From: Candidatus Thiovulum imperiosus
GTDB taxonomy: Bacteria > Campylobacterota > Campylobacteria > Campylobacterales > Thiovulaceae
Direction: 5' to 3'
DNA length: 64,000 nucleotides
Assembly (NCBI GenBank): GCA_024281175.1
Contig: JAMJTW010000027.1
Location: forward strand, 1 to 64,000
Shown here: one piece after another, positions 48,648 to 57,190 of the stretch
How the letters are laid out: every line of letters begins with the position of its first letter
Position numbering within the stretch: position 1 is the first letter of the stretch
The notes under the pieces: model-generated
Told to the model about the DNA's origin: nothing
Seen by the model: the letters and a program-made list of their open reading frames with translations, nothing else
Database searches by the model: none
Made by a program: the position numbers and the translations under genes

Positions 48648-48957
48648 CTTTTTCAGGATAAAACACTCTGAGGGAGGTTCTTTCAGAACTGACCGAAGAG
48701 TTTGCAATTTGAGATAGGGGGTGACCAAATAGGCTTCTGCCTCTCTTGTCATTTCGAACCCTTTAGGGTGAGAAATCTTTATAAAAAGTTGTATCAAGAG
48801 CTATCTTCGCTCTAGTCGAGGTGACAGAAAAACTAGAAACTTTGTCAGCTTTGAACTAAAAATTCAAGTTTTAGGTTTTGTAGACTTTCATTGTAACTAT
48901 AGAGTCATCTCCTAACTCATAATTGTAAAATATAAAAATAGTTTTAGGAGAATAGGT
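48648..48957. other. intergenic region with MITE remnant
   Basis: About 310 bases with no supported gene. It contains a MITE fragment (48717-48832). Near the end, ATAATTGTAAAATATAAAA is promoter-like before the GTG start at 48958, which has a TTAGGAG ribosome site. I see no structured RNA. Confidence 0.5.
48717..48832 (+). mobile_element. MITE-like element, copy 4 (rearranged)
   Basis: The left end GGGTGACCAAATAGGCTTCTGCCTCTC is intact-like, but the core behind it (TCATTTCGAACCCTTTAGGGTGAGAAATC) runs in the opposite orientation to that of the complete copies. The right end is lost (…GAGGTGACA). Recombination between the two palindromic arms of the core would explain this. Confidence 0.75.
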
Positions 48958-49311
48958 GTGGAAGATTTAACAAGTATGAGACAATCTATCAAAAGTGAGA
49001 TAGAAAAGACAAAAGAAGCTCTGCTTCAGAGCAATGATAAGAGAGCAATTCGCTTTTTTTTAGACTCTATACATGATGATATTAGACTTATGATTAATGA
49101 GGGTTTTAGTTATAAACAGCAGTTGGAAATTATCAATAAATCTACTAATAAAAATATAAAGTATAATACTTATCTCCGCTACGTCAAAAAGTACTTAAAT
49201 TTAGCTGGTTCAAAAAGAAAAGAGTTAAACGAGAGTAAAATGAGTCGAGAAAAAGGGAGAGATTTTGGCTTCACCCATGAAGCAGTTCCAGATATGGAAG
49301 AACTTTATTAG
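48958..49311 (+). CDS. small helical protein, C-terminal tag family, member 1
   Basis: 117 residues, GTG start after TTAGGAG. The middle (DDIRLMINEGFSYKQQLEIIN, then NIKYNTYLRYVKKYL) looks like a helix-turn-helix unit and is clearly shared with the third gene of this trio. The last 17 residues, RDFGFTHEAVPDMEELY, belong to a tag found at the exact C-terminus of all three genes. No signal peptide. It may bind DNA; the family is unknown to me. Confidence 0.72.
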   Translation: MEDLTSMRQSIKSEIEKTKEALLQSNDKRAIRFFLDSIHDDIRLMINEGFSYKQQLEIINKSTNKNIKYNTYLRYVKKYLNLAGSKRKELNESKMSREKGRDFGFTHEAVPDMEELY

Positions 49312-49320
49312 GAAAATATT

Positions 49321-49455
49321 ATGTGGAAATTTTTAAAAAAACTATTTGGCTTCTTATTTTTCAGATCATCAAAAAAGAGTGAGTTTCGAGAAAGAGAATT
49401 GAGCAATCGAACTTTCAAGCATGAACCTGTTCCAGACAAAGATGAACTTTATTAA
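49321..49455 (+). CDS. 44-residue protein, C-terminal tag family, member 2
   Basis: Ten bases after member 1. The N-terminus MWKFLKKLFGFLFFR is a strongly amphipathic or membrane-touching helix, followed by a short charged linker and the tag NRTFKHEPVPDKDELY at the end. It lacks the helix-turn-helix-like unit, so the tag is the only part shared with its neighbours. The ribosome site is modest. The conserved tag and spacing show that it is a real gene. Confidence 0.68.
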   Translation: MWKFLKKLFGFLFFRSSKKSEFRERELSNRTFKHEPVPDKDELY

Positions 49456-49463
49456 GGATTAGT

Positions 49464-50024
49464 ATGTTTTGTATGTTGAAAATAGCACAAATGGTGTTTG
49501 TAAATCAGAAGAGTGAAAAACGGGATAAAGAGTTAGATTTTTTCATGAAATCAATTAGTGACGAGACTTATCTTGACTTGATAAGAGCAAGAGTAGAGTA
49601 TCTAATTGATGAGGGTTTTAAATATAGTGAGCAACTTGAAATTATCAACAGAGAGTCTGGCAGAAATATAAGTTACAACACTTATACAAATTTTGTGAAA
49701 CTTTTCATTTTGGAAAATCCAGAAAACCTATTTCAGATGAGGGAGTTTTATAAACAGTATAAAGGATTTTATCCACAACTTGAAGCTCCAGAAAAACCAG
49801 CTCCAAAAATTCAAGAAGTTAAACCTATTCTTGAAACCGAAGTTGTTTCAAAACCAAAACCTAAGAAAAAGAGTCCTCCACCTCTAAAACCTACGGGAAC
49901 TACAGAAGATTATAAATCTAAAGTGAAAATAGAGCCTCTCAAAAAGCCTAAAGTGAACAAAGCCCCTGAAAGAGATATCGGCTTTAAACACGAAGCCATG
50001 CCAAATGTGGACGAATTATATTAA
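49464..50024 (+). CDS. small helical protein, C-terminal tag family, member 3
   Basis: 186 residues; AAGGATTAGT precedes the ATG. Residues about 40-75 (ARVEYLIDEGFKYSEQLEIIN, then NISYNTYTNFVKLFI) match member 1. A long Pro/Lys-rich linker (about 105-165) separates this unit from the C-terminal tag RDIGFKHEAMPNVDELY. Likely a DNA- or partner-binding domain tethered by a flexible arm to a docking tag. Confidence 0.72.
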   Translation: MFCMLKIAQMVFVNQKSEKRDKELDFFMKSISDETYLDLIRARVEYLIDEGFKYSEQLEIINRESGRNISYNTYTNFVKLFILENPENLFQMREFYKQYKGFYPQLEAPEKPAPKIQEVKPILETEVVSKPKPKKKSPPPLKPTGTTEDYKSKVKIEPLKKPKVNKAPERDIGFKHEAMPNVDELY

Positions 50025-53967: not shown

Positions 53968-54747
53968 ATGGTGGAAGAAGTAACACTAGAGAATATTGAT
54001 AAATATATAGAGGAGAAGAGTTCTCTTTTTGTTCCTCCATCAATGAAAGATGCAAAAGAGACTCTTCTTGAAATTGTCTACTCAAATGAGAGAGGGGTCT
54101 ATATCATTTATGGAGAACAGGATATTGGAAAGAGCCGTTTAATAAATTCTATAAAAGAGGAGATAGAAAATGATATTTTCATTATCTCTAAACCTTATCA
54201 AACAGAGAGAGAGACTCTTGACGAACTTTATAGACAACTTCGAGGAAAACAGTTTGCTGAAAGTGTAAAACTTTATGAAGTGAAAATTAGAGTTAATGAC
54301 GCTTTTAAGAAAGTTAGTCACACTATCATAATAGATAATACTTCTGAGTTTTCAAAAAATGTTTTAATAGAACTCTTGAGATTTGCAATTGAGGCAGTTG
54401 ATTTGAAAGTTCTATTTGTCTTTAGTAATAATTGGAGAGATTTAGAACTTGATGTTACTCCAAAATTTGAGATAAAACTTCACAAAATGGTTGAAAAAGA
54501 TATTGGGAACTATTTAGATTTTCTTTTTTTAGATACAGAGTTTGAGAGTGAATTGAAAGAGTTTAAAAAACATATTCATTTCATTTTTGAGACTTCAAAA
54601 GGAAATTTTACATCTATGATGGCTCTTATTTCTGGTGTTTTTGAAATCATAGGTTTTGCCAAAAAAGAGGAGTTGGAAAAACATCAGAAAGTAAATGAGT
54701 GCCTTATAGTTATGAGTGCTTTTCATAAAGAGTTGATTGATGGATAA
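53968..54747 (+). CDS. AAA-type ATPase, ExeA/MshM-like
   Basis: 259 residues. SLFVPPSMKDAKETLLEIVYSNERGVYIIYGEQDIGKSRL contains the N-terminal entry and Walker A (GEQDIGKS); Walker B is HTIIIDNTSEF. The layout follows ExeA/GspA-type ATPases that work with a membrane partner at the cell wall. The next gene, overlapping by eight bases, is such a single-pass membrane protein. Target unknown. Confidence 0.72.
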   Translation: MVEEVTLENIDKYIEEKSSLFVPPSMKDAKETLLEIVYSNERGVYIIYGEQDIGKSRLINSIKEEIENDIFIISKPYQTERETLDELYRQLRGKQFAESVKLYEVKIRVNDAFKKVSHTIIIDNTSEFSKNVLIELLRFAIEAVDLKVLFVFSNNWRDLELDVTPKFEIKLHKMVEKDIGNYLDFLFLDTEFESELKEFKKHIHFIFETSKGNFTSMMALISGVFEIIGFAKKEELEKHQKVNECLIVMSAFHKELIDG

Positions 54748-57190
54748 AACCAAACTATTACAACTTGAACTTAAATGTAAACAGTATCAGAAGAGTAGAG
54801 GTGGTCTCTTCTCGAAATTCAAAGACTTAAAATTTCCAAAAATATCTTTTCCTAAAAGTTTTCCAAAATTTTCGAAGAAAATTGTAATTGCTATTCTAAT
54901 TCTCATTCTTATTACAATTTCATTTTTCTTTGGAGAAAAAGCTATAAATCGGTTTGCAGATAGCAACATCTCTTTACAATTTGATTTCAATTTTTCAAGT
55001 TGGCTTCCAGACATGAATTTCTCTTTTTTTGAAGATACAAACTTTTCTGCTAAAGATATTTTAGAGCATATAGAGACAAATAGTTCAGTTTGGAAAGATT
55101 TACTTCCTGAAGATAATGGCTCTTTTGAGTATGAAATCAACAATACTCTAATTGAGAAAAAAGAGATAACAGAAGTTGATAGCAGTGATGAGATGATAGA
55201 TTTTAAGAACTATATTCTGCTTGACTACCGAGAAGTTCGAGAAAATGAAATTGAAGATTTAGTTCATATTGAGATGGAAGAGGAGATAGTTCTTATCGGA
55301 GAACCTGATGATAGCTATCATATATTTGAAGAGGAAATTAAAAAAGAGGTTGTAAAAAAGGTAGAAGTTTATAAAGAAGAGTTCGTATTTGAACCAACTC
55401 CACCAACTGAAATAGTCTATGTTGCTGAAGTTCAACTAGTTGGTGAAGAGTTTGTTCTTACTAATATCGAAAAAGAGCAACCAAAAATAGAGTGGGACGA
55501 TATTTACATCTTTGATGAGAACATCTCTCCGCAAAATATGAAGTCAAGTAAAGATGATGATTTTGATGTTATAGTAGATAGAAGAGATTTAGAATTAAAA
55601 GAGGTAGAGAAAAAAAATCGAGAAAATTTAGATGGTATTGAAAATATGGCAATCATTGTTAATGATATGGAAGCTGAAAATTCAATTCCTCTAAACCCAA
55701 TAGATGAGGTTATGGAGATAGAACCTATCGCCTCTTTAAAACCTCAAAAAATAGAAGAAGAGATAGCTTCTCAAAACGAAGCTCCACCATTACCAGATAG
55801 CTGGGGTGATTTTCGACTTTTTCCAACTGTTCCTGAACCAACTAAAATTGAGGAAGATACTGTTACTTTAAAAGAGGAACTTCCAAAACAGGTCGAAAAA
55901 CCTCAAGTTTTCACAGAAATTCCAAAACCAAAACTTGAAGAAGAGAAAGTTGAAGTAGAAGAGTTGCCACTACCAAAAGATTGGGAAAACTTCAAACTAT
56001 TTCCAAGTATAGATGCACAAGTAGAAGTTGTAGAAGAAAAGGAAGTTGTTGCAAAAGAGGAGCTTCCAAAAGATTGGGAAAACTTCAAACTATTTCCAAG
56101 TATAGATGCACAAGTAGAAGTTGTAGAAGAAAAAGAAGTTGTTGTAAAAGAGGAACTTCCGAAAGATTGGGAAAACTTCAAACTCTTTCCAAGTGTAGAT
56201 GCACAAGTAGAAGTTGTAGAAGAAAAAGAAGTTGTTGTAAAAGAGGAATTACCAAAAGATTGGGAAAACTTCAAACTCTTTCCTGATAGAGAAGCTGAAA
56301 TTAGAGAAGATGAAAAAGAGGTTGTTGCAAAAGAGGAGCTACCGAAAGATTGGGAAAACTTCAAACTCTTTCCTGATAGGGAAGCTGAAATAGTTGAAAG
56401 AGCAAAAAAGGAGATAGAGATAGTCCCATCTAGTGAAAAGTGGGACGGATATCAACTTTTTGTAGATATAAATAAGAGCGTTAAAATTGAAGAAGTTGTT
56501 GAAGAGAAAGAAGAGGCTCTTGAAAAGGAGGAGCTTCCAAAAGATTGGGAAAATTTCAAGCTCTTTTCTGATAGAAATAGAAGTACTGACATAGTTGAGG
56601 CAGGAGAGAAAGAAGTTGAGATAATTCCTCTATCTGAAGCCGTAGAGCTACCAAATTTTGAGACTGTTCAGCCAGAAATTGTAGAAAAAGAGATACATGA
56701 AATTAGTGAAGTGGAAGAAGATTTACCTCTACCTCAAGATTGGGAAAACTTTGAACTTTTTCCAGAGACAAACAGAAGTATAAATATAGTTGAAGTTGCT
56801 GAAGAAGAGGAGATAGAAGAGAGTATGCCAGAAGAGACAGTAGAACCATCTTTAGAAATTCCTTCGATATCTTTTCCAAATTTAGAAGATAGCGACACCT
56901 CCTTTGAAGATAATGAACTTGAAGAATATGTTGATGAGGTTTCAGAAATTCCAGAAAAGAGATTTGAAATTCCTGAGATTCCAGAAAAGAAATTTGAAGT
57001 TCCAAAAACTCCTGAGATTCCAGAAAAGAAATTTGAAGTTCCAGAAACTCCTGAGATTCCAGAAAAGAAACCTGAAGTTTCTGAACAGAAGAGAACAGCA
57101 CCTTCAAATGACATTCCTCCAGCAGAAGAGATACCAATTCGAGAATATAATACAATTTTTATTTCACCAACTGTTGTGTTTCCAAAGTAA
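54740..57190 (+). CDS. repeat-rich single-pass membrane protein
   Basis: About 816 residues. A basic cytoplasmic start (…KFPKISFPKSFPKFSKK) and one membrane helix (about 49-67) precede a very acidic periplasmic region. The motif LP-x-DWENF-x-LFP occurs at least seven times, mostly in 31-residue units (PKDWENFKLFPSIDAQVEVVEEKEVV-type). Near the end, EIPEKKFEVP units repeat. Such acidic, proline-containing repeats suggest an extended arm through the periplasm. The ATPase before it may be its partner, as in GspA/GspB pairs, but this is inference. ATG 54740 is chosen; a TTG one codon earlier is possible. Confidence 0.75.
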   Translation: MDKTKLLQLELKCKQYQKSRGGLFSKFKDLKFPKISFPKSFPKFSKKIVIAILILILITISFFFGEKAINRFADSNISLQFDFNFSSWLPDMNFSFFEDTNFSAKDILEHIETNSSVWKDLLPEDNGSFEYEINNTLIEKKEITEVDSSDEMIDFKNYILLDYREVRENEIEDLVHIEMEEEIVLIGEPDDSYHIFEEEIKKEVVKKVEVYKEEFVFEPTPPTEIVYVAEVQLVGEEFVLTNIEKEQPKIEWDDIYIFDENISPQNMKSSKDDDFDVIVDRRDLELKEVEKKNRENLDGIENMAIIVNDMEAENSIPLNPIDEVMEIEPIASLKPQKIEEEIASQNEAPPLPDSWGDFRLFPTVPEPTKIEEDTVTLKEELPKQVEKPQVFTEIPKPKLEEEKVEVEELPLPKDWENFKLFPSIDAQVEVVEEKEVVAKEELPKDWENFKLFPSIDAQVEVVEEKEVVVKEELPKDWENFKLFPSVDAQVEVVEEKEVVVKEELPKDWENFKLFPDREAEIREDEKEVVAKEELPKDWENFKLFPDREAEIVERAKKEIEIVPSSEKWDGYQLFVDINKSVKIEEVVEEKEEALEKEELPKDWENFKLFSDRNRSTDIVEAGEKEVEIIPLSEAVELPNFETVQPEIVEKEIHEISEVEEDLPLPQDWENFELFPETNRSINIVEVAEEEEIEESMPEETVEPSLEIPSISFPNLEDSDTSFEDNELEEYVDEVSEIPEKRFEIPEIPEKKFEVPKTPEIPEKKFEVPETPEIPEKKPEVSEQKRTAPSNDIPPAEEIPIREYNTIFISPTVVFPK
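55971..56375 (+). repeat. 93-bp coding tandem repeats
   Basis: The anchor TTGGGAAAACTTCAAACT starts at 55981, 56074, 56167, 56260 and 56350: spacing 93, 93, 93 and 90 bases. More diverged copies follow at 56545 and 56740, each 195 bases on. The unit is a multiple of three, so copy number can change without breaking the frame. Confidence 0.92.
56948..57085 (+). repeat. 39-bp coding repeats near the C-terminus
   Basis: ATTCCAGAAAAGA begins at 56948, 56978, 57017 and 57056 (spacing 30, 39, 39). It encodes EIPEKKFEVPKT-type units. Confidence 0.88.

Follow-up and report, generated by a model that had tools for sequence, protein, structure and literature searches.

Thiovulum is a giant sulfur oxidizer, and the window analyzed here is a stretch of 64,000 nucleotides from Candidatus Thiovulum imperiosus. 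On contig C27 of its 2.2-Mb genome (G000) lies a row of three genes, A, m2, and B, encoding proteins of 117, 44, and 186 residues, each with the tail HE-x-[VM]-P-x-x-x-ELY at its C terminus (Table 1). Gaps of 9 nt separate A from m2 and 8 nt m2 from B, and a purine-rich stretch resembling a ribosome-binding site lies ahead of each start. An earlier note on this DNA had described three adjacent proteins of these lengths with a common tag at the exact C terminus, and the open reading frames and their ends are as it described. No putative DNA-binding repeats or direct repeats were found upstream of A.

Table 1. Features of the A/m2/B row, with positions in the window
Feature	Position	Strand	Description and basis
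Protein A, 117 aa	48958..49311	+	N-terminal helix, TraK/DUF5338 domain, short basic linker, tail; GTG start
DUF5338 (TraK-type, HTH-like) domain of A, residues 10-79	48985..49194	+	Pfam match; AlphaFold2 helices
Tail of A, FTHEAVPDMEELY	49270..49308	+	Alignment, plasmid-tail matrix; low confidence (disordered) in AlphaFold2 model
m2, 44 aa	49321..49455	+	Short hydrophobic cationic head MWKFLKKLFGFLFFR, linker, tail
Tail of m2, FKHEPVPDKDELY	49414..49452	+	Plasmid-tail matrix; 33/42 nt identical to tail of A
Protein B, 186 aa	49464..50024	+	Hydrophobic N-terminal segment, DUF5338, long P/K-rich linker, tail
DUF5338 (TraK-type) domain of B, residues 35-80	49566..49703	+	Pfam match, alignment
Tail of B, FKHEAMPNVDELY	49983..50021	+	Alignment, plasmid-tail matrix

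Both A (E = 2e-18, 66.7 bits) and B (E = 1.8e-7, 31.6 bits) match the DUF5338 model PF17273 above its curated cutoff of 25.9, which bears out the suggestion that the first and third members share a helix-turn-helix-like unit. The AlphaFold2 model of A places helices at residues 39 to 47, 52 to 63, and 69 to 79 with a pLDDT of about 85 to 91, and gives the linker and tail about 43 to 57. For m2, profile searches and searches of defense-system and phage-protein libraries returned no domain or family match. Its residues 1 to 18 are hydrophobic and cationic (+5), with a hydrophobic moment of 0.33 against an average of 0.29 for window proteins; of the membrane-type amphipathic helix previously proposed for m2, the membrane-type character is plausible and the amphipathic character is not well supported. 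The defense-system and phage-protein libraries gave no match in general, the viral contigs searched held no relative, and comparison with the PDB by sequence and by fold found no significant match, with weak winged-helix matches only. In four of the five genomes of the Thiovulum family, B begins with M-[LFV]-C followed by hydrophobic residues (positions 49464 to 49510 of the window and orthologues), and this N terminus is possibly a conserved membrane-contacting segment.

By profile comparison, DUF5338 is the domain of IncP/RP4 TraK: the annotated TraK of the IncP plasmid pBP136 matches PF17273 with E = 5.7e-29 and ends in GFTFDATPKKEDLL, compared with GFTHEAVPDMEELY in the window. In a sample of 14 plasmid TraKs spread over a range of similarity, 12 carry a full-length tail, approximately F-x-[FYH]-[DN]-x-x-P-x-K-x-[DE]-L-[LIFV], at the very C terminus after long, unalignable P/A/K-rich linkers; the other two (L111 and L112) have the first half of the tail only, and traL is still present. 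A scoring matrix built from nine plasmid TraK tails, with no Thiovulum sequences, put the ten Thiovulum tails at ranks 1 to 10 among 2,346 distinct ORF C termini, and among 2 million random 13-mers, 13 scored as high as the tail of m2, 33 as high as that of A, and 225 as high as that of B. Because plasmid TraKs with DUF5338 carry a matching tail and the plasmid-derived matrix ranks the Thiovulum tails first, the tag is not new, as had been supposed when no described system with it was known; judged from these sequences, A and B belong to the TraK family, a known protein class, and the tag is its C-terminal tail. The link is visible at the profile level only, which accounts for the blank tblastn search of A and B against plasmids.

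The likeness to IncP/RP4 TraK (PF17273) extends to the whole layout, with a DNA-binding domain, a variable P/K-rich linker, and the tail F-x-[FH]-[DE/N]-[AP]-x-P-x-x-x-[DE]-L-hydrophobic. The Thiovulum tail differs in ending in Tyr and in having mostly His/Glu where plasmid TraK tails have Phe/Asp or Asn. The genes differ in setting as well: plasmid traK adjoins traJ and traI, whereas those of Thiovulum are chromosomal, form two paralogues, and lie neither directly upstream of traL nor beside traJ-oriT or a relaxase gene. The novelty lies in recognizing that the tail of TraK is conserved on plasmids and chromosomes alike; a search of the open-access literature found no paper describing it.

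The Thiovulum-family set comprised five genomes (G000, the window genome, to G004), three of which correspond to Ca. Thiovulum stygium (CP091137, 1,724,914 bp), Ca. Thiovulum karukerense (JAMJTX010000126), and the Campylobacterales MAG UWMA-0117 (DTUW01000107). A genome-wide scan with a DNA pattern, allowing up to two mismatches, found perfect tag matches in the window genome in A, m2, and B only and in its relatives in A and B orthologues only. The pattern search of related genomes proposed in the earlier note thus recovers the tag in sister genomes, with A orthologues in G001, G003, and G004 and B orthologues in G001 to G004; B alone was found in G002, and the other four genomes have both tailed TraK paralogues. 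In the sister genomes A and B mostly occupy separate loci, near 1,598,110 and 708,900, respectively, on the closed Ca. T. stygium chromosome, and the side-by-side order is therefore specific to the window genome.

Conservation within the proteins is concentrated at the end. When A and B are aligned, the linkers are unalignable, and few columns are invariant, those of the tail among them. Between A and its G001 orthologue, the closest pair, 5 of the 13 tail codons differ with one amino acid change, and the 26 codons before the tail hold 17 amino acid changes; changes to tail codons in close pairs are mostly silent. The prospect, raised at the outset, that the tag is absent elsewhere and the genes are recent, unconserved duplicates therefore does not hold for A and B, given their sister orthologues. 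For m2 the outcome is different, since pattern scans of the five family genomes found it in the window genome only and its tail is, at the DNA level, nearest that of A (33/42 nt), nearer than either is to B, so that m2 may be a partial duplicate.

RP4 has traK, traL, and traM in that order, and traL encodes a member of the ParA/MinD superfamily of ATPases (PMC3098194). A single-copy, full-length TraL orthologue is present in all five family genomes, with 43 to 48% identity to RP4 TraL (204 to 221 bits) and an intact P-loop of the KGGxGK class; its match to the NCBIfam TraL model NF010461 (E = 9.5e-76, 254 bits) lies below the curated cutoff of 360. The Thiovulum proteins cluster together on short branches of the TraL tree, and other strong TraL matches among 150 Campylobacterales fall in a conjugative element (G097), in T4SS-type plasmid regions (G129), and in two members of another genus, g8. 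All five genomes also encode a TraM-like membrane protein with an alignable N terminus containing a DDP[IV] motif and a hydrophobic segment at the C terminus. This protein is beyond the reach of the Pfam TraM model, and its homology to TraM thus rests on alignment and gene order: the traM-like gene adjoins traL in G000 and G004, and an N-terminal piece of it does so in G003. The earlier note had proposed looking for a conserved neighbor that could bind the tag; TraL is conserved in every tag-bearing family genome, and in g8 and most of the sampled plasmids it lies next to the tail proteins, but it is not beside A/m2/B, as traL and traM lie on contig C31 of the window genome.

Compared with the TraKLM/StbABC leading-region operon of RP4 and R388, the Thiovulum genes encode the same apparent complement of a DNA-binding protein, a ParA/MinD-like ATPase of the KGGVGK class to which RP4 TraL belongs, and a small protein whose C terminus forms a membrane helix. 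Unlike that operon, they are dispersed, with traL and traM adjacent in some genomes and traK-type genes elsewhere; they include an extra tail-only protein; and the TraM-like protein has 247 residues rather than 145. A search for the PF03432 relaxase family found none in the five genomes, and no other transfer genes were seen at the loci read. Also new is the finding, as read from these sequences, that the Thiovulum family has TraKLM genes on the chromosome and lacks a PF03432 relaxase.

The association of tail and TraL can also be approached from the plasmid side. Plasmid loci were picked by traL alone and the upstream gene was read, giving nine TraK-position proteins; left out, for want of a TraK-like gene directly upstream, were Advenella (L151), whose traL-upstream gene has no tail, an IncU plasmid (ssb), and a C. 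jejuni plasmid (coupling protein). A relaxed tail core, hydrophobic-x-[FHYW]-[NDESK]-[PASG] within the last 25 residues, occurs in seven of the nine and in 15 of 372 control ORFs, and the resulting p of 3e-8 overstates the case because the pattern was written and relaxed after inspection of these sequences and loci without an upstream TraK-like gene were omitted. The same core is found in none of three StbA proteins paired with StbB of the SGxxGK class. StbA of R388, R46, and R721 had been candidate tail carriers and were rejected, the tail being missing. TraK-like proteins of another type, in G129 and other conjugative elements (L063, L138), have the conserved tail GPI[IV]LDP....K..Y.GSTKNI.RDEI, with a shorter form in L069; in G129 this tail occurs with a divergent TraL (about 30% identical), so that tail type may track ATPase type.

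A tail on a different head is found in g8, another genus of the Campylobacterota (L129, L130). Directly upstream of traL-traM, which is surrounded by ordinary chromosomal genes, g8 encodes an amphipathic-helix protein of 93 or 94 residues ending in FKHSAIVDKDIWE or FEHSAIVDKNIWE, that is, F-[EK]-H-S-A-I-V-D-K-[ND]-I-W-E, the only such end in each g8 genome. The N-terminal helix has a hydrophobic moment of 0.63 to 0.68, against a 95th percentile of 0.55 for window proteins, and is followed by a K/P-rich linker; no DUF5338 match is listed in either genome. The protein resembles m2 in architecture and stands in the traK position, and the likeness of its tail is visible to inspection and weak by the plasmid-tail matrix (scores of 4.4 and -1.3). 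Such tail-only proteins with heads predicted not to bind DNA are new. The giant-bacteria actin Bbp was also considered as a partner of the tail and dropped, as Thiovulum is reported to lack it (PMC10580974).

In the explanation that we consider probable, the tail-bearing proteins A, m2, and B belong to a Stb-like TraK-TraL-TraM module that positions DNA and is encoded on the chromosome, its TraK-type members and a membrane-helix variant being docked to TraL through the tail. The module would have been acquired from the operon found in the leading region of MOBP conjugative plasmids or would share its origin. A and B would act as TraK-family DNA-binding proteins that mark DNA, and the tail, a flexible, solvent-exposed docking peptide on a disordered linker, would be TraK's handle for TraL, the most likely receptor, with binding dependent on ATP. 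TraM, and possibly tail-only proteins with membrane heads such as m2, may hold TraL near the membrane, so that DNA marked by A and B, presumably chromosome copies, would be placed or tethered. With a PF03432 relaxase absent, the cargo is probably the chromosome, possibly multicopy, rather than a plasmid. ParABS and Noc offer a possible mode of action, as a DNA-binding adaptor with a Walker ATPase or as DNA brought to the membrane, but no ParB or Noc domain was found in A or B, and the candidate adaptor here belongs to the TraK type and would dock through a terminal peptide. The earlier idea of a docking signal read by a common partner gains from the different heads on one tag, a DNA-binding-like module and a plausible membrane head, and from TraL as a candidate partner; the direct binding we infer.

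Within the same module, the tail could instead dock TraM or a host protein. TraM co-occurs with tails as widely as TraL, and in one small mobilizable plasmid (L108) the 5.4 kb read around the gene for a tailed TraK contains no gene annotated as traL or traM; against this, TraL is far better conserved than TraM, and StbA paired with the other StbB class has no tail, points that separate TraL from TraM weakly and leave a different receptor, in our view, unlikely. The plasmid L108, with no annotated traL nearby, also leaves room for a relaxosome partner (TraI or TraJ), and the gene order of plasmids, where TraK is beside TraJ and TraI, together with the HTH-like fold of DUF5338, would suit a tail that serves TraK in the relaxosome or in autoregulation by contacting those proteins, its own DNA-binding domain, or DNA, with the Thiovulum genes acting as transcription regulators. 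Retention of the tail where no PF03432 relaxase is found in any of the five genomes argues against relaxosome contacts, and self-contact would not lead one to expect the tail on non-HTH heads (m2 and the g8 protein), which makes this reading improbable.

Decay presents another alternative, as TraK, TraL, and TraM are plasmid genes elsewhere and the dispersed Thiovulum loci could be leftovers of an integrated plasmid. Yet TraL is kept in all five genomes with an intact P-loop and short branches, two tailed TraK paralogues persist in four of them with mostly silent tail changes in close pairs, and the loci read hold no further transfer genes, so that a decaying conjugative element is very hard to credit. 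A doubt that carries more weight concerns m2, which could be a nonfunctional partial copy of A, duplicated from its 3' end, an outcome compatible with docking of A and B to TraL. The closeness of the two tails at the DNA level and the restriction of m2 to the window genome point that way; its open frame, with an RBS-like sequence and a start codon of its own, and its tight operon-like spacing, as well as the similar kind of protein upstream of traL in the independent genus g8, point the other way, and we lean modestly against duplication while regarding it as a serious contender.

In R388, StbB carries plasmid copies to the poles of the cell, and StbA works through DNA repeats (PMC3098194). 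How an StbB/TraL ATPase finds its DNA-binding partner was left unresolved in that work, direct StbA-StbB contact being a proposal only (PMC3098194), and a tail of 13 to 14 residues common to plasmid TraKs and chromosomal proteins makes an answer directly testable in RP4, a plasmid in standard laboratory use. The Thiovulum data suggest that giant bacteria of this family, whose cells, at tens of micrometers across, would have to place their DNA, incorporated a plasmid DNA-positioning system into the chromosome. Somewhat short of an even chance, in our estimate, is the fuller proposal that a docking peptide read by TraL sits on swappable DNA- and membrane-binding heads and was converted to organize or tether the giant Thiovulum chromosome, the same peptide linking TraK to TraL in IncP-type plasmids.

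Two further features of the window were observed. The interval between wzz and A (48740 to 48835) is palindrome rich, with TCATTTCGAACCCTTTAGGGTGAGAAATCTTT ... GTCGAGGTGACA, and looks like a REP/MITE-type repeat. Farther along, at 54737 to 57190, an 817-residue membrane-anchored protein with LPKDWENFKLFP repeats of about 35 residues adjoins an ATPase-like gene at 53968 to 54747.
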